A stretch of 64,000 nucleotides of DNA from Rhodocyclaceae bacterium. GTDB lineage: Bacteria; Pseudomonadota; Gammaproteobacteria; Burkholderiales; Ga0077523. The notes below the pieces were generated by a model. The model did not search any database. It was not told the origin of the DNA and saw nothing but the letters and a program-made list of their open reading frames with translations. Position 1 is the stretch's first letter. The number at the start of each line of letters is the position of its first letter. The DNA lies in contig JADCHQ010000002.1 of assembly GCA_020248405.1 (NCBI GenBank), positions 1 through 64,000 on the forward strand, in the 5' to 3' direction. A program made the position numbers and the translations under genes. Positions 28,029 to 38,891 of this stretch are shown piece after piece.

Positions 28029-29027
28029 CTACGTTGCGCCGTCTGCGTGAACGTCGCACGGCTCATCGGTGCAGAGGAAGACCTCCACCGTCACGTGGCC
28101 GAGCCCCTCCACGTCCCGGAGCAGCGCCTTGTAGTGCTCGGCTGATCTCGGGCGGTGCGTGGCAACGGACAGAATCAACGCGCGGCTCTCCCCCCCAATG
28201 TTCCACAGTCTGAGGTCGGCCACCACGTTGTCAGCATCGGCCTCGATGCGGCGCACTATCTCGGATCGCAGCGCTCCCTCGTCCTCGGCGTCGAGCAGCA
28301 CCCTGCCAGTGACGCGCAACAGCCCCCACGCCCACCAGCCGATGAGCATGGATGCCGCGATGGCTACAGCGGGGTCCAGCCACACCCAGCCGCGGAACCT
28401 GCCGGCCAGCAGGGCGGCAATGGCGAGCACCGACGTGAGCGCGTCAGCGATGACGTGCAGATAGGCGGCGCGCAGGTTGTGGTCGTGGTGATGCACGTGC
28501 GGGTGACGATGGCCGTGTCCCGCGTTGTGGTCATGGGAGCTGCGCCCGTGATAGGCGCCGGGCCCGGCCAGCAGCAGCGCGCTTGCCACGTTGACCGCTA
28601 GCCCGATGACGGCGACCACGATGGCTTCGTCGAAACGAACTCCCACGGGTTGCAGGAGCCGTCCGGCGGACTCCACCGCCATCAGGACCGCGACCACGGC
28701 GAGCAGCAGTGCGCTGGAGAAGCCCGCGAGCGCCCCCACCTTGCCCGTTCCGAAGCTAAACCGTTCGCTCAAGGCATGGCGCCTAGCAAAGGTGTAGGCA
28801 AAGGCGGAGATCCCCAGGGCGGCCGCGTGGGAGCCCATGTGCCACCCGTCCGCCGTGAGCGCCATCGAGCCGGTCAGCCATCCGGCCACCAGTTCCACCA
28901 GCATGGTGATGACGGTGAGCGCGAACACTGCCTTCGCGCGCCGCTCTGCGCCGTGTTGGTGGCCCGACAGGCCGGTCCTGGCCTGCCGCCAGCGCCTCAG
29001 GGAGGCATGCTCGTGGTTGGAATCCAT
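28029..29027 (-). CDS. dmeF: CDF-family divalent-metal exporter (DmeF type)
   Basis: An inner-membrane cation/proton antiporter of 332 residues with about six TM helices. The TM2 metal motif TADGWHMGSHAAALG and TM5 HVIADALTSVLA carry the conserved H/D ligands. A His-rich cytosolic loop (HDHNAGHGHRHPHVHHHDHN) lies between TM4 and TM5, followed by a C-terminal cytoplasmic domain. DmeF proteins export Co/Ni and often Zn. It borders the metal island, but no TGCAA-N5-TTGCA palindrome is seen in its upstream 180 bp, so it may be regulated differently. Confidence 0.87.
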   Translation of the reverse strand: MDSNHEHASLRRWRQARTGLSGHQHGAERRAKAVFALTVITMLVELVAGWLTGSMALTADGWHMGSHAAALGISAFAYTFARRHALSERFSFGTGKVGALAGFSSALLLAVVAVLMAVESAGRLLQPVGVRFDEAIVVAVIGLAVNVASALLLAGPGAYHGRSSHDHNAGHGHRHPHVHHHDHNLRAAYLHVIADALTSVLAIAALLAGRFRGWVWLDPAVAIAASMLIGWWAWGLLRVTGRVLLDAEDEGALRSEIVRRIEADADNVVADLRLWNIGGESRALILSVATHRPRSAEHYKALLRDVEGLGHVTVEVFLCTDEPCDVHADGAT

Positions 29028-29210: not shown

Positions 29211-30221
29211 TCAGGAAAGGGCGGTTTCCGCTGGCGCCTCGGCTCCCGCCACGCAGAGGGCGAGGCCTTTCTCGAACACTTCGCGAGGAAGGCTTCGTCC
29301 GATGAACACCATGACGCTCTCCCGGGGCTCGTCAGGTAGCCACGGCCGGCCCATGTCGGCCCCGAAAAGCATGTGCACACCCTGAAACACCGTGCGGCAG
29401 TCCCGGCCCTCCACATGGAGCACGCCCTTGTACCGCAGCATCTTCGTCCCGAAGTGCTGGATCAGCAGGTCCATGAACAGCTCCAGGCGGGAGAGGTCGA
29501 AGGGCCTGCTGTCCCGGTAGACGAAGGAGCTGATCTCGTCGTCGTGGTCGTGGGCGGTGTCGTCCAGAAAACCGGGGTCGATGGCGAGGATGGCGTCGAG
29601 ATCGAACCCGCGAATGTCGAGGAGCTCACTGATCGCCGTGCGGCCGAAGTCCGCGCGCCGCAGCGGGGCGCGCGGATTCATGGACCGCAGGCGGGATTCG
29701 AGCGAGGCCAACGCCTCCTCCGTTGCGAGGTCGGTCTTCGAGATGAGGATTCGGTCGGCAAAGCCTACCTGCTCCTGCGCTTCGTGATGCTCGCTGAGCT
29801 GGAGCGGGCCATGGACTGCATCGACCACCGTGATGATGGCGTCCAGCACGTAATGGCGGTGAATGTCGGCATCCGCGAAAAACGTCTGTGCCACCGGTGC
29901 CGGGTCGGCGAGCCCGGTAGTTTCGATGATGACGCGTTCGAAGGCGATGCCACCGGCGTCGCGGCGCTGCCTCAGTTCACCGAGGATTCGAACCAGATCC
30001 CCGCGCACAGTGCAGCAGATGCAGCCGTTGTTCATCTCCACGATCTGCTCGCTGTTATCGTGCAAAAGCAGTTCGTTGTCGATGCCAGCCTCGCCGAACT
30101 CGTTTTCGATCACGGCGACGCGCCCGCCATGCTGTTCGGAGAGTATCCGGTTCAGCAATGTCGTCTTGCCGCTGCCGAGAAAGCCGGTGAGGATGGTGAC
30201 GGGAATGGGGGAAGGGGTCAT
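29211..30221 (-). CDS. COG0523/G3E-family GTPase metallochaperone
   Basis: A 336-residue CobW-like GTPase. Walker [10 protein letters not shown] (13-21), the metal motif GCICC (C67, C69, C70), [10 protein letters not shown], NKxD equivalent ISKTDL, and a CobW C-terminal domain with [14 protein letters not shown] and [10 protein letters not shown] short Asp/His-rich stretch (AHDHDDE, near 220) could bind metal. Family members load zinc or other metals onto clients; the island context favours zinc scarcity. ATG 30221 starts the conserved N-terminus. Its upstream region, shared with the divergent paralogue, holds two operator-like palindromes. Confidence 0.9.
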
Positions 30222-30372
30222 GGCGGGCTTCGTTGGGGGCTTGGTTGGAGTGAAGGGTGGGCCGCGGCTTTCAGGGTCAAACAGCCGCTTTCGGACAGCG
30301 AGCCAGCGCACGGCGGCGGGTTAGCGTCGCGCGCCGGGCGCGGATAACGGCGCCGCCCCCCCCGGCATAAAA

Positions 30373-30387
30373 TGCAACTTCGTTGCA
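30373..30387. promoter_or_regulatory. Candidate Zur operator 1 (TGCAA-N5-TTGCA)
   Basis: TGCAACTTCGTTGCA is a perfect palindrome with a 5-nt centre, located between the divergent G3E GTPase (start 30221) and the degenerate paralogue (start 30478). The same pattern recurs upstream of other genes of the island. Assignment to Zur is inferred from gene content. Confidence 0.6.
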
Positions 30388-30429
30388 ATTATCGAAGTGT
30401 AGCCGGAAAACGGCGCTATGGCGTGAAGA

Positions 30430-30444
30430 CGCAACTGCATTGCA
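30430..30444. promoter_or_regulatory. Candidate Zur operator 2
   Basis: CGCAACTGCATTGCA matches the TGCAA-N5-TTGCA pattern at 9 of 10 half-site positions and lies 33 bp before the start of the degenerate G3E gene. A second TTGCA follows at 30450-30454, so the site may be compound. Confidence 0.5.
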
Positions 30445-30477
30445 TAATCTTGCAACAGATGGCTGAGCGGGGGGGCG

Positions 30478-31545
30478 ATGCTGGATTTCGAGAGCGACAC
30501 CGGCGGAGGGCGTGTCCCGGTGACGGTTGTGGCCGGCGCATCGGAAGGCGCCTGCGTGCGCCTACTGGGGCGGCTGGATTTCGAAGCGGCGGGTGGCGGC
30601 GTCCTTGCGATTGTAAACGGGCCGATGAAGCAGGCGCCGGCAGTGGCTGGGCTTGTGGAGCACATCGGCGGCAGGATGGTTCCCCACGCCGTGGGTTGTC
30701 TGTGTTGCGCGGGACGGTCGCCGCTCACCGATGCCCTGCGCCGCCACTACGCCCGGCGTTCCCATGGGGAGAGCCGGTTTGCGCGGGTGGTGATCGAGCT
30801 CGAGCCGGGGGACGATCCCGCTCCGGTCCTGCAGACGCTTCTCAACAACGCGCTGGTGACCCAGTACTACCGGCTGGATGGACTGGTGGCGGTTCTGAAC
30901 GGCGCGGCCTCAACCTCTTTGCAGGCAGGCGTACGCAAAGCCGTCGCCATGGCTGATCGTGTGCTGTGGGTCGGCGAACAGCCCCTGCCGCCGTCGCTTG
31001 CCCATGAGGTTGCGGTGCTCGCGCCCGCGGCGATGCCGGTGATTGCCGAGACCGCTCCCCGACTGGGCGAGAGGTTGACCGGCTGCGGTTATCACGACGC
31101 GGTGCGGGACGGAAACGGGTTAGGCCGTTGGCTTGGCGCAGAATCCCTGGAGCAAGCCGGACCCGGGGCGCCGGGCGAGCGCGTCCAGCGTTTTTGCGTC
31201 GATCTGCCATCGCGGATGGGGTGGGAGGGTTTTCACACCTGGATCGACGCTGGCATGCGCATGAACGGGGATGTGATCTGGAGGGTTCGCGGAGTGGTTG
31301 CGCTGGAGGGCGAAGACGGGCCGATTCTGGTGCAAGGGGTTCAGCAAGTGCTTCAGCCGCCTGTCCGCTTGCCCGCCTGGGGCGACCTTCCGCGCCGCAG
31401 CCGCCTCAGTTTCGTGACCTGCGATCTGGATCGCGCGGCGGTGGTGGAAAGTCTTGCTCGCGACCTCCCGGTCTTCGATGCGCAAGCGCGCGAGCGGCAG
31501 CAGCGAAGAATCCGGGCCATGGCGGACCCGTCCCTGCCCGCCTAG
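30478..31545 (+). CDS. Degenerate COG0523/G3E paralogue lacking GTPase motifs
   Basis: A 355-residue protein that aligns by eye along its length with the G3E GTPases of the island but has lost nucleotide-binding residues. GFLGSGKTT is replaced by GASEGACVR (20-28), ETTGLADP by ELEPGDDP, and the NKxD equivalent by WVGEQP. The metal-binding motif is kept as GCLCC (C74, C76, C77), as is the CobW C-terminal domain (VIWRVRGVVALEGED, VQGVQQV). The frame is intact, so it is not a decayed gene. It probably binds metal or partners with an active GTPase without hydrolysing GTP. Convergent with zur, 15 bp apart. Confidence 0.8.
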   Translation: MLDFESDTGGGRVPVTVVAGASEGACVRLLGRLDFEAAGGGVLAIVNGPMKQAPAVAGLVEHIGGRMVPHAVGCLCCAGRSPLTDALRRHYARRSHGESRFARVVIELEPGDDPAPVLQTLLNNALVTQYYRLDGLVAVLNGAASTSLQAGVRKAVAMADRVLWVGEQPLPPSLAHEVAVLAPAAMPVIAETAPRLGERLTGCGYHDAVRDGNGLGRWLGAESLEQAGPGAPGERVQRFCVDLPSRMGWEGFHTWIDAGMRMNGDVIWRVRGVVALEGEDGPILVQGVQQVLQPPVRLPAWGDLPRRSRLSFVTCDLDRAAVVESLARDLPVFDAQARERQQRRIRAMADPSLPA

Positions 31546-31560
31546 GCAGTTGCGGCGCCA

Positions 31561-32067
31561 TCAGCCCGCTCGGTCGGGCCGGCGCCGCGAGGCGAAGCCG
31601 AGCAGCGCGGTGCGGCAGCGGGCGCACAGCCCCGTCAGCTCCACCACTGCGCCGCTCACCGAAAACCCCACTGCCTTGGCGGCGGCGGAAAGGCGCGCCA
31701 TGGCGGTCCGGGACTGCACCTCGGCGGTGGTGCCGCAGTCGGTGCAGATGAGCAATTGGCAATCGTGGTGGGCTTCAGGATTCACGCACGCAAGAAAGGC
31801 GTTGCGGGATTCAACGCGGTGCACCAGGTGCTGCTGCTGGAGGAAATCGAGAGCCCGGTACACGGTCGGGGGCCCGGATTCCCGGCCGGACGTGAGCACC
31901 CGATCGAGGATCTGATAGGCGGTCATCGGGCTGCGGGCGTGAGCGAGGATGGTGAACACCTCCCTGCGCACCGGTGTGAACCGCTGGCCGCGCCGGGCGC
32001 ACAACCGCTCCGCCACCGCCACGAGCGCCTCGGGGCTGTCCTTCTCGCCTGGATTGCCACAGTCCAC
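31561..32067 (-). CDS. zur: Fur-family regulator, probable zinc regulator Zur
   Basis: A 168-residue Fur-family repressor with an N-terminal winged helix (RFTPVRREVF ... TVYRALDFLQQ) and a dimerisation domain. Structural-zinc cysteines are in LICTDCG and GLCARC, and metal ligands in NPEAHHDCQ. The C-terminal GLCARC pair and the COG0523 neighbours favour Zur over Fur. The start is GTG 32067 with AGGAGAGG upstream. A degenerate copy of the island palindrome lies 37 bp upstream, so autoregulation is possible. Confidence 0.8.
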   Translation of the reverse strand: MDCGNPGEKDSPEALVAVAERLCARRGQRFTPVRREVFTILAHARSPMTAYQILDRVLTSGRESGPPTVYRALDFLQQQHLVHRVESRNAFLACVNPEAHHDCQLLICTDCGTTAEVQSRTAMARLSAAAKAVGFSVSGAVVELTGLCARCRTALLGFASRRRPDRAG

Positions 32068-32103
32068 CAGCCCCTCTCCTGCGACGCGCGCCGGGCGTCA
32101 CTT

Positions 32104-32118
32104 TGCAATGTTGTTCCA
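32104..32118. promoter_or_regulatory. Degenerate Zur operator upstream of zur
   Basis: TGCAATGTTGTTCCA matches the left half-site perfectly and the right at 4 of 5 positions, with the same 5-nt spacing. It is 37 bp before the zur GTG. Weak on its own, but supported by the nearby better copy at 32148. Confidence 0.35.
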
Positions 32119-32147
32119 CAAGGCTCGGGGCGTAGTCTAGGAACAAT

Positions 32148-32162
32148 CGCAATGCTGTTGCA
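32148..32162. promoter_or_regulatory. Candidate Zur operator between zur and the cyclase gene
   Basis: CGCAATGCTGTTGCA has the island pattern with one half-site deviation, identical in type to the copy at 30430. It lies 63 bp before the cyclase-family gene and 81 bp before zur, so it could serve both directions. Confidence 0.55.
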
Positions 32163-32224
32163 AGTGCGTCTGTGCAGCATGGCGCGATGTTGCTGTGCCC
32201 CATCAAAACGGAGGAGAGTCTCAA

Positions 32225-33346
32225 ATGGATCAGGATTTCGACCAAGAAGCCGCTGCCCAGCAACCCGATTCGCCGCCGCGGCGCGATTTCATCCGCGGGG
32301 CGGCTGCTGCCACCGCCGCGGTGGGCGCCGTCACCGTGGCGATGCACGAGCTTGATCTGGTCAAGCGCGCCGAGGCTGCCGACGGCACCATCGACGGGAC
32401 TCCGATGGCTGACCGCTGGTGGCCGTCGCGCTGGGGCAAGGACGATCAGATCGGCGCCACCAACTGGATGGGTCCGAAGACTACGCTCGACGCCGTGGCC
32501 CAGATCAAGACTGGCAAGGTCTATAGCCTTGGCAGGGTGTACGAGTTCGGGATGCCGCTGTTCGGGCAACGCGCCTGGGTGCTGCGCATTCCCGGGAATC
32601 CCACCGGGGGCGCGTACGGCAAGAACCAGGTCATCTGGCACGACGAGATCCTCAGCACCGAAATCGGCCAGGTGGGCACGCAGTTCGACGGTCTTGGACA
32701 CATCGGGTGCCGCACCGGAAAGCCGGGCGACAAGACGCAGGAGGTCTACTACAACGGAGTCACTGGCACGGATCTGCATGACAGCGGCGGCGGCCCTGGC
32801 AGCACCACCGGAGCTTACGGGCTGCTCAAGCTCGGGGTTGAGAACGTGCGGCCGTTCTTCTGCCGGGGAGTGCTTTTTGACGTGGCAGGGCTAAAGGGGC
32901 GCATGCTCGACAAGGGCGAGGAAATCACCGTTGCCGACCTCAAGGCCTGCCTCGCCCGCCAGGGAATGACCGAGGCCGACATCACCGAGGGCTGCGCGGT
33001 GATGTGGCGCACGGGCTGGGGAGAAAATCTCTGGATGAAGGACAACGCCCGCTTCAACTCTGGCGAGCCGGGGATCGGTGTGGAGGCGGCGAAGTGGCTC
33101 GCCGCCAAGGGGGTCTCGGTGGGCGCGGCCGATTGCTGGGCCATCGAAGTGGTACCGAATCCGGACCCGAACCTCGCTTTCCCCGTGCACCAGATTTTCC
33201 TTACCCGCAACGGCATCCACATCCTGGAGAACATCCGTCTGGATCACTTGGCAGCTGACAAGGTGTTCAAGTTCGCCTTCGTGATGGCGCCGTTGCCCAT
33301 GAAGGGCGCCACGGGTTCTCCGGCCGCGCCCATCGCGGTGGCCTGA
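32225..33346 (+). CDS. Tat-exported cyclase-family (kynurenine formamidase-like) protein
   Basis: A 373-residue protein with a twin-arginine signal (RRDFIRGAAAA, residues 19-29), hence periplasmic after folding. The body is the Cyclase (PF04199-type) fold related to KynB metal hydrolases. The usual HxGTHxDxPxH metal signature appears as QVGTQFDGLGH: Q149 and Q153 replace two histidines, while D155 and H159 remain. ATG 32225, with GGAGGAGAG upstream, is the start. Placement beside zur and under an operator-like site suggests expression during zinc shortage. The substrate is unknown. Confidence 0.82.
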   Translation: MDQDFDQEAAAQQPDSPPRRDFIRGAAAATAAVGAVTVAMHELDLVKRAEAADGTIDGTPMADRWWPSRWGKDDQIGATNWMGPKTTLDAVAQIKTGKVYSLGRVYEFGMPLFGQRAWVLRIPGNPTGGAYGKNQVIWHDEILSTEIGQVGTQFDGLGHIGCRTGKPGDKTQEVYYNGVTGTDLHDSGGGPGSTTGAYGLLKLGVENVRPFFCRGVLFDVAGLKGRMLDKGEEITVADLKACLARQGMTEADITEGCAVMWRTGWGENLWMKDNARFNSGEPGIGVEAAKWLAAKGVSVGAADCWAIEVVPNPDPNLAFPVHQIFLTRNGIHILENIRLDHLAADKVFKFAFVMAPLPMKGATGSPAAPIAVA

Positions 33347-33391
33347 GGCGGCGGGGAGTTGTCCCGGGAGGGGGCTAACCTCCTCCCGGAT

Positions 33392-34402
33392 CTACCGGCG
33401 CTGCGCGGGGGGCGCCGCGACGATTGCCACCGCGCCGTCGCTGCGCGATGCCGCTAGGTTGGAACCGTCGCCGGACCATGCCAGAGCCGTGATCGATGCT
33501 CCGGCGGACTCCCACAAGGTGATGTCGTGGCCGGAGTCTGCGAGAGCCGCGAGTACGACACGGCCGTCCCCGCATCCGATGGCCACACGATCGCCACAGG
33601 GGTCGCAGGCCACCGCCGTTACCAGCGTCTCTGTGAACGGTCCGACCATGCGCGGCGGCTTGCCCTTCGGCCCGGCCCCGGCGAAATCCCACGCGATGGC
33701 CGCGTCGGCGCCGCTCGTCACGAGCCAACGCGCGTCACGGGACCACGACAGGTGCCTGACTTTCAGGTGGTAGCCGCTCATGCGCATGTCGCTGCCGTCG
33801 CGAAGGCGCCAGACATGCAGCTCCTTTTCCTGAGTGCTCGTGGCCACATGCGCCCCGTCGGGGCTCCAGGAAACATCCAGGTGCGAACCGGCGTACGTGA
33901 GCGACACCGGCGTCTGCCCGGCGCCAGCGCGGGCATCCCAGATGGTCACGCCGTTGTAGTGACAGGCGGCCACGGCGGTTCCTTGCGGCGAAAAGGCGAT
34001 GCCAGAAACAGTGCTCGGGAGCCCCGGCAGAACGAGGAGTTCCGAGGATGTCATCCAGTGGAGGCTCCGGCCCGCGGCAAACGCCTCACCCCCGACGCGG
34101 TGGCTGGCCACTGCTTCTACCCAGCCCGCCGGGTCGGGGCCAGCCAGACCGGGATCCGCGCCGGGCCCCAGATACCAGGCCCCCTGGTCGGTCGCCACCA
34201 GGAAGCCGTCCTCGCCGCGAGGCGCGATTGCACCGGTGTGCAGCGCCTGCAGACGCACGGGTTGGCTCCGTGCCCCATCGATCAGCCATACGCAGGCGTC
34301 GGCATCGGTGACCGCGATACAGGTGCCGTTGCGGTTCCAGGCAATGGCATTCGGGTGCCCGCCGATGGCGACTACCGGCGGATTGGTGCGCGAGTTCGAC
34401 AT
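33392..34402 (-). CDS. WD40-repeat beta-propeller protein
   Basis: A 336-residue protein built of about seven WD40-like repeats, visible as IAWNRNGTCIAVTD, IAFSPQGTAVAACHYNG, VSWSPDGAHVATSTQ, LSWSRDARWLVTSGAD, VACDPCGDRVAIGCGDG and LAWSGDGSNLAASRSDG. No signal peptide, so it is cytoplasmic, and likely a scaffold or binding platform. It is divergent from a G3E GTPase across 144 bp. I recall such WD40 genes next to COG0523 genes in proteobacteria. Partner and function unknown. Confidence 0.82.
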   Translation of the reverse strand: MSNSRTNPPVVAIGGHPNAIAWNRNGTCIAVTDADACVWLIDGARSQPVRLQALHTGAIAPRGEDGFLVATDQGAWYLGPGADPGLAGPDPAGWVEAVASHRVGGEAFAAGRSLHWMTSSELLVLPGLPSTVSGIAFSPQGTAVAACHYNGVTIWDARAGAGQTPVSLTYAGSHLDVSWSPDGAHVATSTQEKELHVWRLRDGSDMRMSGYHLKVRHLSWSRDARWLVTSGADAAIAWDFAGAGPKGKPPRMVGPFTETLVTAVACDPCGDRVAIGCGDGRVVLAALADSGHDITLWESAGASITALAWSGDGSNLAASRSDGAVAIVAAPPAQRR

Positions 34403-34546
34403 GGGGCCGCGGGGAGGAGTCAGGAAAGAGGTCTGAAACGGCTACCAGTGGAATCTTACATGCAACACAACAGCACTTGCGACAAAATGGCGTAACCGGT
34501 AGCCTCGTCGTTCGATACGTGGAGAGGCTCGCCGGAGGAGAATTCA

Positions 34547-35896
34547 GTGACCGCGCCGAAGATTCCAGTAACGGTTCTCACCGGCTTTCTTGGAGCCGGC
34601 AAAACCACACTGCTCAATCGAATACTGAGCGAGAACCACGGCCGCCGCATCGCTGTGGTGGAAAACGAGTTCGGCGAAATCGGGGTGGATCAGGACCTGG
34701 TCATTCGCGCCGACGAGGAAGTCTTCGAGATGAACAACGGCTGCATCTGTTGCACGGTCCGTGGCGACCTGATCCGCATCCTGGGCAGCCTGATGAAGCG
34801 CCGGGACCGCTTCGACCGCATCCTGATCGAGACCACTGGGCTGGCCGATCCCGGACCTGTGGCGCAGACGTTCTTCGTCGATGACGACATGCGCGAGGCC
34901 ATGAGCCTGGACGCCGTGGTGACGGTGGTGGACGCACGGCATCTGGGGCAGCACCTCGACACCAGTGACGAGGCCCGTGCCCAGGTGGCGTTCGCCGACG
35001 TAATCCTCCTGAACAAGATGGACCTCGTCACCCCAGCCGAGGCGGATGCGCTCGAGGCGCGCTTGCGTGGAATGAACGGCATGGCCCGGGTGCGGCGCGT
35101 ACACATGGCCCAGGCCCCCATGGAGGACGTGCTTGACATCGGCGGGTTCGACATTGAGCGCGCGCTTTCGATCAAGCCAACGTTTCTGGACCCCGAGTAT
35201 CCCTTTGAGTGGGTGGGTGCGGTGGACATCCCTTCCGACGGCGCACTGTTGCGGCTTGCTCAGGGACCGGACCCCTCCATGAGGGTGTTGTGTGCGAGGC
35301 TGCTGCCAGGCGAGACGCTCGAGGAGGCGGCGGAGCGCATTCTCCCGGCGTTCTCGGGGCCTGCCGGCGCTTGCTCGATTGGCGCCTCGGTCTCGCCGGA
35401 TGGCAGACCCGTGGTGCTCGACCTCGGCGGGCACGCGTCCAGCAGCTTCCATCTCCAGGGGGAGGGTGGCGGCCGGTTCGGCCTCTTCACAGAGCACCTG
35501 CCCGAGGAGTTCGACTTGGCCCTCCAGACTGCGGCGGGCACGCCACTGCCGCCCGCTGAGCAACGACGCTTCGCCGCCGCCCACGAGCACGACGCGGCGG
35601 TCACTTCGGTGGGCATCGAGTTCCGTGGTGCGCTCGACAGCGGGCGGGTCAATACTTGGCTGTCGAAGCTGCTGCAAACACGGGGGGCGGACATCTACCG
35701 AATGAAGGGGCTCCTGGATATCGCGGGAGAGTCGGAGCGGTTCGTGTTCCAGGGAGTGCACATGCTGTTTGACGGCCAGCCTGGAGGCGGTTGGGGAACC
35801 GATGGCCGCGTCAACCGCCTAGTGTTCATCGGCCGCGGGCTTGACCGCGAGGAACTGGAGTCCGGACTACGCAGTTGCCTGGTGCGGCAGGCGTAG
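34547..35896 (+). CDS. COG0523/G3E-family GTPase with internal insertion
   Basis: A 449-residue CobW-like GTPase: Walker [10 protein letters not shown] (13-21), GCICC (C66, C68, C69), [10 protein letters not shown], and NKxD as LLNKMDL. It is about 110 residues longer than the paralogue at 29.2 kb because of an insertion at roughly residues 215-350, before the C-terminal [20 protein letters not shown] block. HEHDA within it could bind metal. GTG 34547 follows CGGAGGAG. It is divergent from the WD40 gene; the shared spacer has only a very degenerate operator-like sequence. Confidence 0.9.
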
Positions 35897-35993: not shown

Positions 35994-36809
35994 CTAGGGC
36001 TTCGCGCCCGGCCGGGCGTGGGGGGCGCTGCGAAGACGCCAGATGAGCCAGGCGTAGACGCCAACCACAGGAGCCACCAGGGTTGCTCCCACCAGCGTCC
36101 AGGCGTTGGGTTCTGGCATCAGCTCCGGCGAAATCCTGAGAGCCGCACCAGCCCCGGCCATCAACAGGGACAGCGCCACGATGCACCAGCCGAGCGTGCG
36201 CCGAAAGGCGTGCCGGCTCTGCTCGTCCGCATTGCGCAGGATGCCGAACAGCAGGCGGCTGTCGAGGGTGTCCGGAATGATCATGCCGGCCGTGAAGGCA
36301 ACACCCGCAAGCAGCGCAGCTGGCACGCCTCCCTGGGCGTTCGCCACGTAGCCCCAGGCGGCGGCCTGGCTGGCAGTGTCGAATACCAGCGCGAAAACCA
36401 CGCCGGCAGCGATGATGCCCGAGGGGTTGCCGGCCCTGGCCAGCGGACCCGCGAGGCGTAGCACAGGTGTGGCCGATGCGGACGTTCTGGTCCGCAACAG
36501 GGACACGAGATTGGCAATCCCGATGGCGGCGAGCAGCGCCACGGGTAACCAGCCGGCAAGCTGCTGCACGAGCACTGGCCATTTCATCGGAACGTTCACC
36601 AGGCTCACCAGCACCGCGACGATGGTAATCAAGATGCCGTGGCCTATGGAGAACAACGTGCCGGTCCATGGGGCGACTGCCGGCCGCGTGCGGGAGCAGT
36701 GCAGGGTCAGCGCGTCAATGACAGCCACATGGTCCGGGTCGAGGCCGTGTCTGAACCCCAGCAGAAGCATCAGGCCGACCCCGGTGGTGGAAATGGTTTC
36801 GACGCTCAA
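35994..36809 (-). CDS. NiCoT-family divalent metal permease
   Basis: An inner-membrane protein of 271 residues, about seven or eight TM helices. TM1-2 carries the HX4DH metal signature of NiCoT transporters (RHGLDPDHVAVID, H21, D26, H27). Second-motif equivalents are GHGILITIV and FDTASQAAAW. NiCoT proteins import Ni or Co; in a Zur-type island a zinc role is also possible. The start is TTG 36809 with GAGG upstream. A strong promoter overlapping an operator-like palindrome lies 160 bp upstream, separated from the gene by an intrinsic terminator. Confidence 0.8.
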   Translation of the reverse strand: MSVETISTTGVGLMLLLGFRHGLDPDHVAVIDALTLHCSRTRPAVAPWTGTLFSIGHGILITIVAVLVSLVNVPMKWPVLVQQLAGWLPVALLAAIGIANLVSLLRTRTSASATPVLRLAGPLARAGNPSGIIAAGVVFALVFDTASQAAAWGYVANAQGGVPAALLAGVAFTAGMIIPDTLDSRLLFGILRNADEQSRHAFRRTLGWCIVALSLLMAGAGAALRISPELMPEPNAWTLVGATLVAPVVGVYAWLIWRLRSAPHARPGAKP

Positions 36810-36842
36810 CGCCGCACCTCGCCGGCCCGCGGATGAAACCCG

Positions 36843-36873
36843 AAAAAAAGGGGCATCCGTCGCCGGACGCCCC
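36843..36873 (-). terminator. Intrinsic terminator in the leader of the NiCoT gene
   Basis: On the minus strand GGGGCGTCCG, loop GCGA, CGGATGCCCC forms a 10-bp stem with one G-U pair, followed by seven T. It stands 33 bp before the permease TTG start and about 95 bp after the expected transcription start near 36968. It either ends a small RNA or the upstream fur-type transcript, or acts as an attenuator of the permease. Confidence 0.8.
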
Positions 36874-36975
36874 GTGCATGAGCCGAAGCGGAGAGAGCGC
36901 TACACCCCGGCCGGTCAAGGAGCCGGCGCGATTTCCCGGAACTGGCCGGAAAGCGGGCGGTCTCGACTTGGCCGA

Positions 36976-37004
36976 ATATTATTGCCACTCGGAAAGAAAT
37001 GCAA
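36976..37004 (-). promoter_or_regulatory. Sigma-70 promoter overlapping a Zur-type operator
   Basis: Minus strand: -35 TTGCAT (37004-36999), exactly 17 bp, then -10 TAATAT (36981-36976). The -35 hexamer is embedded in the palindrome at 37000-37014, so a bound repressor would block polymerase. Expected start of transcription is near 36968. Confidence 0.65.
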
Positions 37005-37014
37005 GCGAGTTGCA
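37000..37014. promoter_or_regulatory. Candidate Zur operator upstream of the NiCoT gene
   Basis: TGCAAGCGAGTTGCA, a perfect TGCAA-N5-TTGCA palindrome like that at 30373, placed over the -35 region of the minus-strand promoter and just past the end of the second Fur-family gene. Confidence 0.6.
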
Positions 37015-37075
37015 AAACAGAAACCGACACGGGTGCGGAGCGTACTCGGATGGAATCAAGCGGCTGCGCGGGCGT

Positions 37076-37582
37076 TCAGCCCGACACCGGGTTGCGGCGG
37101 GTGCGCACGGCACGACGATAAAGTCCGTGCTTGCGGGGGTCGTGGGCCTTGTTGGAAGGGGAGCAGACCGCGCAGAGGCCCTTGATGGTGAGGTCCACTT
37201 CCTGGGGAGTAAACCCGGCGGGCAGAGCTGGTGTCCAGCCTGAACCCAGGTCGTCCAGGCAGGTGACCGCCTGGCAGCAGGTGCACTTGAAGTGGGCGTG
37301 ATTGTGGGCCGACTGCTCCGCTGCGGTGTTGAACCGCCAGACACGGTCGTCACCGCTGATCTTGTGGGCCAGCCCCTCACCGGTGAGCCACTCCAGAACG
37401 CGGTAGACGGTGACCCTGTCGATCCCCGCGGCCTGGGGAAGCCGCGACTCGATCTCTGCGTGGGAGAGTGCGTTGTCAGCCTTCAGCAGAAGCGCCAGGA
37501 TTTCGATGCGCGCGTTTGTGACGCGCGCCCCGGTATTGCGGATCAGTTCCTGCGCGGCGGTGCGGTAGCTGGCGGTGGCCAT
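37076..37582 (-). CDS. Second Fur-family regulator
   Basis: A 168-residue Fur-family protein: DNA-binding part with ARVTNARIEILALLL and DRVTVYRVLEWL, dimerisation part with NHAHFKCTCCQAVTC and IKGLCAVC. Both CxxC pairs of structural zinc are present. It is clearly divergent from the Zur-like protein at 31.6 kb, so the island encodes two sensors; which one binds the palindromes cannot be told. It follows the ABC binding-protein gene by 28 bp on the same strand and precedes the metal permease. Confidence 0.85.
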   Translation of the reverse strand: MATASYRTAAQELIRNTGARVTNARIEILALLLKADNALSHAEIESRLPQAAGIDRVTVYRVLEWLTGEGLAHKISGDDRVWRFNTAAEQSAHNHAHFKCTCCQAVTCLDDLGSGWTPALPAGFTPQEVDLTIKGLCAVCSPSNKAHDPRKHGLYRRAVRTRRNPVSG

Positions 37583-37610: not shown

Positions 37611-38891
37611 TCAGCGCTTGAAGCCTGCGCGGATCCAGTCGATGCTCTTCACGCCATCCGGCGGACTCACCTTGTCGGGCGCGTAGTAGCGCACGTTGGT
37701 GAGGGTGGGCTTGCCATCCACCATGCGCAGCGTGCCGTAGGGCACCCCCTGCACGGCCTGGTGTCCCCTGCCCAGGGACATGTCCACGATTCCCGCCACC
37801 GACTCGAACTTGTTGTATTCAAAGGCGGCGATGATCTGCTCGTCGCTGGGCGCGGCCGTCTTGAATTTCTTTTGCGCTGCCTCGTAGGCGCTCTTGGCGC
37901 CCAGGAATGCCGTGGCCATGTGGTAGGAGGAATACACGGGAATGGCCTTGAACTGGTCCTGGAAGGACTTCCGGAACCAGTTGTTGAGCTTGGTGGCCGG
38001 CGCGAAGGGGCCGTTGGGGCCTCGGGCGCCGATCATGGTGCCGTCGGGCAGTTGGCTCCCCAGGCGCTCGAGGATGGTGTCGCCGCAGATGATGATGTTG
38101 GGGCTTTTCTTGAGCAGTCCGCGCGGCGCCGCCTGCAGCACGAAGGCCTCCAGGTCGCCGCCCCACAGGGAGTTCTGCATGATCTCGGCATTGCTGCCGA
38201 TCAGGGCCGAGACCTCGGTGCCGTACTGGCCAGCGCCCAGCTTGGGCGTCATGTTGGTGGCAATCTGCGCCGCGGGCAGCAGGACCTTCAGCGATTCCGT
38301 AAAGTCGCTCCATGCGTCCTGGCCCCATGCATAGTTCGGGTTGACGCCCGAAAACGTCTTGAGGTTGGGGTACATCTCCGCGATGTAGCGCGCCGCGGCC
38401 ACGTTTTCCTGGGTGGCCATGGTGGTGGTGCGGAACACGTACTTGTAGCTGGCTTCCTCGAAGATGCGATTGGTGGAGCAGTCGAACAGCACCGTGATCT
38501 TCTTCGATTCCTCGGCCACGGGCGCAACCGCCAGGCAGTCGCCGCTGGAGATGACGCCGATCACCATGTCCACGTTCTGGCGCGACACCAGGTTGCGGTA
38601 TTCCGTCACCACCTTGGTGGGGCCGCCAGCTTCGTCCACGTACACCACCTCGATGGGACGGCCGCCAAAGCCCTTTTGCTCGTAGCCTGGCACGATGCCG
38701 CCCTTGTTAAAGGTGTCCACCAGCAGGTCAGCGGCGTTCTTGGCCGGGACGCCGAAGGGCCCCGCGGCGGGGCCCGAGAGGAAAGTGATCACACCGATAC
38801 GCAGCGGGCGGTTGTCCTGGGCGGTGGCAACGCCGGCGAAGGCGGCTGCCGCGAGAAACACCGCGGCACGCCGGAGCAATTGGGGCAACAT
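37611..38891 (-). CDS. ABC transporter substrate-binding protein (branched-chain amino acid type)
   Basis: A 426-residue periplasmic binding protein with signal peptide (cleavage near VATAQD) and the Peripla_BP_6 pattern: IGVITFLSGPAAGPFG, VDMVIGVISSGDCLAVAP, YVFRTTTMATQENVAAARY and PNYAWGQDAW. No permease or ATPase genes adjoin, so it is an orphan receptor whose transporter is elsewhere. The ligand is unknown. It shares strand and close spacing with the downstream Fur-type gene, possibly by chance. Confidence 0.88.
   Translation of the reverse strand: MLPQLLRRAAVFLAAAAFAGVATAQDNRPLRIGVITFLSGPAAGPFGVPAKNAADLLVDTFNKGGIVPGYEQKGFGGRPIEVVYVDEAGGPTKVVTEYRNLVSRQNVDMVIGVISSGDCLAVAPVAEESKKITVLFDCSTNRIFEEASYKYVFRTTTMATQENVAAARYIAEMYPNLKTFSGVNPNYAWGQDAWSDFTESLKVLLPAAQIATNMTPKLGAGQYGTEVSALIGSNAEIMQNSLWGGDLEAFVLQAAPRGLLKKSPNIIICGDTILERLGSQLPDGTMIGARGPNGPFAPATKLNNWFRKSFQDQFKAIPVYSSYHMATAFLGAKSAYEAAQKKFKTAAPSDEQIIAAFEYNKFESVAGIVDMSLGRGHQAVQGVPYGTLRMVDGKPTLTNVRYYAPDKVSPPDGVKSIDWIRAGFKR

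Follow-up and report, generated by a model that had tools for sequence, protein, structure and literature searches.

The region upstream of nicO, a NicO-family permease gene in the window (the whole 64,000-nucleotide stretch of DNA analysed here), is best explained as a metal-repressed promoter followed by a strong leader terminator, probably unconditional and lineage-specific, from which an RNA of about 125 nt would be released. We give this reading a probability of roughly 0.45, somewhat below an even chance. The operator, the hairpin, their geometry and the pattern of conservation are read directly from the DNA (Table 1).

Table 1. Features around the nicO leader and copies of its operator; positions are those of the window except for C7:102947.
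Feature	Position	Strand	Basis or remark
NicO-family permease gene nicO, 271 aa, TTG start	35994..36809	-	PF03824, E 1.1e-11
nicO Shine-Dalgarno, GAGGTG	36815..36820	-	sequence
T7 tract directly after hairpin	36843..36849	-	sequence
Intrinsic terminator hairpin GGGGCGTCCG-GCGA-CGGATGCCCC; 10-bp GC-rich stem, GCGA loop	36850..36873	-	pair probabilities at least 0.99
Predicted terminated leader RNA, about 125 nt	36843..36968	-	start near 36968 inferred; end at T-run
-10-like TAATAT (overlaps AATAAT)	36976..36981	-	4/6 matches; G/C-free 9-mer
-35-like TTGCAT, within operator	36999..37004	-	3/6 consensus matches
Predicted Fur-family operator TTGCAACTCGCTTGCAT (Nur-box-like TGCAA-N5-TTGCA)	36999..37015	-	sequence; near copy 5' of nicO orthologue, L068
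Divergent Fur-family regulator gene	37076..37582	-	present in 12/12 genus genomes
Periplasmic substrate-binding protein (SBP) gene	37611..38891	-	regulator's upstream neighbour in genus-mates
Second perfect operator copy, between COG0523 GTPase gene and divergent G3E-like gene	30372..30388 (palindrome 30373)
Third perfect operator copy, just 5' of TonB-dependent receptor gene	C7:102947
Near operator copy	30429
Near operator copy, between Zur-like gene (31561-32067) and cyclase gene	32147..32163

The operator and the predicted promoter

The earlier note described a TTGCAT-N17-TAATAT promoter overlapping a perfect TGCAA-N5-TTGCA palindrome, and inspection of the minus strand confirmed both elements. 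The palindrome lies inside TTGCAACTCGCTTGCAT (37014-37000), the operator overlaps the predicted -35, and the spacer between TTGCAT and TAATAT is 17 nt. The hexamers are weak. The pair agrees with the consensus at 7 of 12 positions, a score that occurs about 1.15 times per kb per strand, and was not listed in a stricter promoter scan. The -10 sits in AATAATATT, and G/C-free 9-mers number only nine in the window. By themselves the promoter hexamers are not significant, and the start near 36968 is predicted. The weakness of the hexamers counts against the main reading, as does the likely promoter register, which differs from that in L068, the locus of a nicO orthologue.

Perfect matches to the palindrome number three in the 3.7-Mb genome against two for a reversed-pattern control, so the number by itself is not above chance and the location is the informative part. 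The 17-bp operator form with at most one mismatch has four forward and five reverse matches, against none in the control. Metal genes adjoin all three perfect sites, namely this nicO, a COG0523 GTPase gene and a TonB receptor gene. At the nicO orthologue (L068, genome G002; 51% identical), a near operator, TTGCCACTCGATTGCAT, stands about 131 nt upstream of the start. Because the perfect copies adjoin only metal genes and a near copy holds a similar place at the orthologue, we regard the palindrome as very probably a genuine operator. A palindromic operator common to several metal genes is the pattern of a Fur-family promoter of the Zur/Nur type, and the metal genes beside the operator copies support the proposed control of this promoter by metal through a Fur-family protein.

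Operator-related sites with 2-3 mismatches were found in five genus-mates (L058, L060, L062, L064 and L066), 22-127 nt past the regulator stop codon and 5' of a dmeF- or cobW-like gene. In most genus-mates (L057-L067), the next gene after the divergent regulator, or the one beyond, for example, cobW, encodes a DmeF-type CDF efflux protein, and an operator-like site often stands between regulator and dmeF; the dmeF of the window is displaced to 28029-29027. Packed into 7 kb of the window (29211-35896) are two complete COG0523 GTPase genes together with a divergent G3E-like gene (30478-31545). Operator-like palindromes were further seen 5' of His/Asp-rich PEP-CTERM proteins (DDHDHSGHSDI, DDDDHDHGGHSDI; L113:1501 and L114:1501), which are possibly metal-binding surface proteins.

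The terminator before nicO

The 10-bp stem and T7 reported just before the permease start are present, with 33 nt between the end of the T7 and the nicO TTG. Hairpins of this class (stem of at least 9, at least 7 GC pairs, at least 6 T of 8) did not occur in 40 dinucleotide shuffles of the window, and the outer stem with its T-run (GGGGC-N8..22-GCCCC-T6) occurs once in the 3.7-Mb genome. The hairpin is thus far beyond chance.

The hairpin lies 203 nt past the regulator stop codon. Calibration used 788 kb (0.79 Mb) of the 3.7-Mb genome, which is a limited sample, and a rough gene caller; most strong intrinsic terminators located outside genes stood 20-50 nt past a same-strand stop. There were two other apparent distance outliers; one follows rpmA, which is too small for the gene caller, and the other ends tmRNA. 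The atypical distance therefore favours the hairpin as the end of a transcript that starts between regulator and nicO, and it supports the earlier view that the terminator is placed to end the RNA of the operator promoter and not for the usual closure of the regulator gene. Downstream of the regulator gene, no terminator was found before this hairpin, and elsewhere in the genome terminators stand 12-20 nt before a same-strand gene. Both facts would suit a terminator that merely closes the SBP-regulator transcript, nicO having a separate promoter, but the operator stands upstream of the terminator, inspection of the 33 nt after the T-run revealed no promoter-like sequence, and no comparable terminator follows the regulator in the 11 genus-mates examined. 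We consider such a closure distinctly unlikely, and the absence from the genus-mates indicates that the terminator is probably not an inherited gene-end terminator.

The terminator is also absent at the nicO orthologue of G002, and none of 54 nicO upstream regions had a comparable one or one as near the start. It looks specific to the lineage with the nicO cluster behind the regulator. At two genus-mate loci, L062 and L064, a GC-rich hairpin stands between the SBP gene and nicO, close behind the former. We rejected it as a counterpart since its T-run is short or broken and set off from the stem, and no operator was found upstream of it; it resembles a usual terminator of the SBP gene.

A junction restricted to one lineage could be the residue of a rearrangement that joined the nicO cluster behind the regulator, leaving a non-functional terminator that nearly silences nicO. 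In G002 the cyclase-WD40-cobW-nicO cluster is indeed on a different contig from the regulator, and in the other genus-mates the gene after the regulator is dmeF or cobW, with a different gene in a single case. The nicO open frame is nevertheless intact, with a good Shine-Dalgarno, and we regard a mere leftover as highly improbable. Support for TTG as the nicO start comes from the orthologue, whose N-terminus is similarly laid out and also begins at a TTG.

The predicted leader RNA and the search for a switch

An intrinsic terminator in a leader just before a gene, here just before the nicO Shine-Dalgarno, is the arrangement of a transcription attenuator, the leader start being predicted. The earlier note accordingly offered conditional termination, riboswitch-like or by a leader peptide. 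If a metal, a protein or leader translation prevented the hairpin, nicO would have two control layers, and such dual control is described for another metal gene, E. coli mntP, by transcriptional regulators and a yybP-ykoY riboswitch (PMC11647493). The searches gave this idea no support. No Rfam covariance match (cobalamin, NiCo, yybP-ykoY and others) was obtained for the leader, and the hairpin is nearly always formed in the predicted leader. Neither an antiterminator structure nor a leader peptide was found: the upstream leader is no more complementary to either hairpin arm than shuffled sequences are (0.90 and 0.75 of the shuffles do as well), the fold of the pre-terminator leader is no more structured than shuffles (z -0.34), and no frame after the predicted start has a Shine-Dalgarno. 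Just one frame, GTG-TAG, lies wholly between the predicted start and the hairpin. A small protein gene from TTG (37004-36915) was dismissed, its start lying inside the operator and upstream of the -10, with no Shine-Dalgarno. One open frame, beginning at TTG 36918 or ATG 36879, spans the hairpin, which its translation could melt; read-through dependent on leader translation is possible with this frame, and a protein- or translation-dependent switch may exist even in a leader without a recognisable one. Neither the leader, across 11 genus-mates, nor the terminator is conserved in the relatives examined. Conditional attenuation thus appears unlikely.

The expected product of the promoter and terminator geometry is an RNA of about 125 nt with no contained ORF, its start being predicted; to this extent the metal-controlled RNA of the earlier note stands as a predicted transcript, but a function as a small RNA does not follow. 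A trans-acting, metal-controlled small RNA would leave the downstream nicO served by read-through only. It has a precedent in a Fur-family-controlled transcript, Nur and s-SodF (PMC3919588), and a second strong terminator of this genome that is remote from stop codons ends an RNA, tmRNA. Such a function is, in our judgement, rather improbable, as the leader belongs to no Rfam family, is not conserved in the genus-mates, and has longest exact matches at chance level in the part of its own genome searched for target complementarity (about 0.79 Mb). The search for a conserved leader gave a single match, of 26 nt and antisense inside the selO gene of a genus-mate (L086:5023-5048), which was taken as chance because the SelO of the window genome is only 43% identical to that of the genus-mate.

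We therefore return to the metal-repressed promoter with an unconditional terminator. A metal-loaded Fur-family repressor (the 37076-37582 regulator or the Zur-like 31561-32067 protein) would bind TGCAA-N5-TTGCA over the -35 region and shut off the promoter starting near 36968. When metal is scarce, the promoter would fire, and the terminator would end most transcripts near 36843, about 125 nt downstream, while also catching read-through from the SBP-regulator genes. As transcripts from both sources should end there, nicO would depend on read-through, and NicO would be made from that fraction. The terminator would act as a fixed insulator and damper of nicO, and the RNA would be a by-product. 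Repression, the start site, the efficiency of termination and the terminator's lack of regulation of its own are what we infer here. Against this explanation stands the cost that a strong, unconditional terminator would impose ahead of an import gene.

Candidate regulators and known systems

Two Fur-family regulators are encoded 5 kb apart, a Zur-like one (31561-32067) and the divergent one (37076-37582), in a cluster where the same operator occurs several times, and either protein could be the reader of the operator. The divergent regulator, which in the genus genomes lies next to or near the same SBP gene, scored 43.4 bits against a curated Zur model with a cut-off of 167 and does not qualify as a Zur orthologue; the 31561-32067 protein came nearer, at 116.5 bits, and is the clearer Zur relative (E 1.8e-34 to 7dh7). 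The profile matches of the divergent regulator are all remote, the nearest being E. coli Zur (E 1.4e-9), followed by Xanthomonas Zur, a Fur and Nur (3eyy, E 1.7e-7). In its HxHxH motif, all three His are invariant across the genus.

Zur boxes often overlap the -35, and Zur regulons include COG0523 genes (PMC6103462). The locus resembles Zur/Fur-repressed metal-import promoters in that a palindromic operator overlaps the predicted -35 of an import gene and copies of this operator also stand at COG0523 and TonB receptor genes, and it differs from them in the strong intrinsic terminator between promoter and gene. The operator also matches the Streptomyces Nur box, tTGCaa-N5-ttGCAA (PMC3919588), a consensus from a different bacterial group. 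As with Streptomyces Nur, the gene that would be controlled is of the NicO (nickel transport) family, and the adjacent regulator has an HxHxH motif; unlike in Streptomyces, this regulator has just a remote likeness to Nur and a slightly closer one to E. coli Zur. With E. coli mntP, the shared idea is control of a metal transporter by a transcription factor and at the leader. The nicO leader, in contrast, is without an aptamer, Rfam match or conservation, and the gene serves import, not export. The wider claim, that a terminator bypassed conditionally behind a Fur-family metal-repressed promoter, or a terminated leader of about 125 nt acting as a small RNA, forms a new RNA-level layer in nickel/zinc import control, is doubtful.

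Were the terminator conditional, a metal importer with a putative Fur-family repressor would gain a further layer of control at the RNA level. As a promoter-leader unit the nicO locus is clearly delimited and simple to test. It also records a set of Nur-box-like operators in a genome with two Fur-family regulators, either of which could read them.
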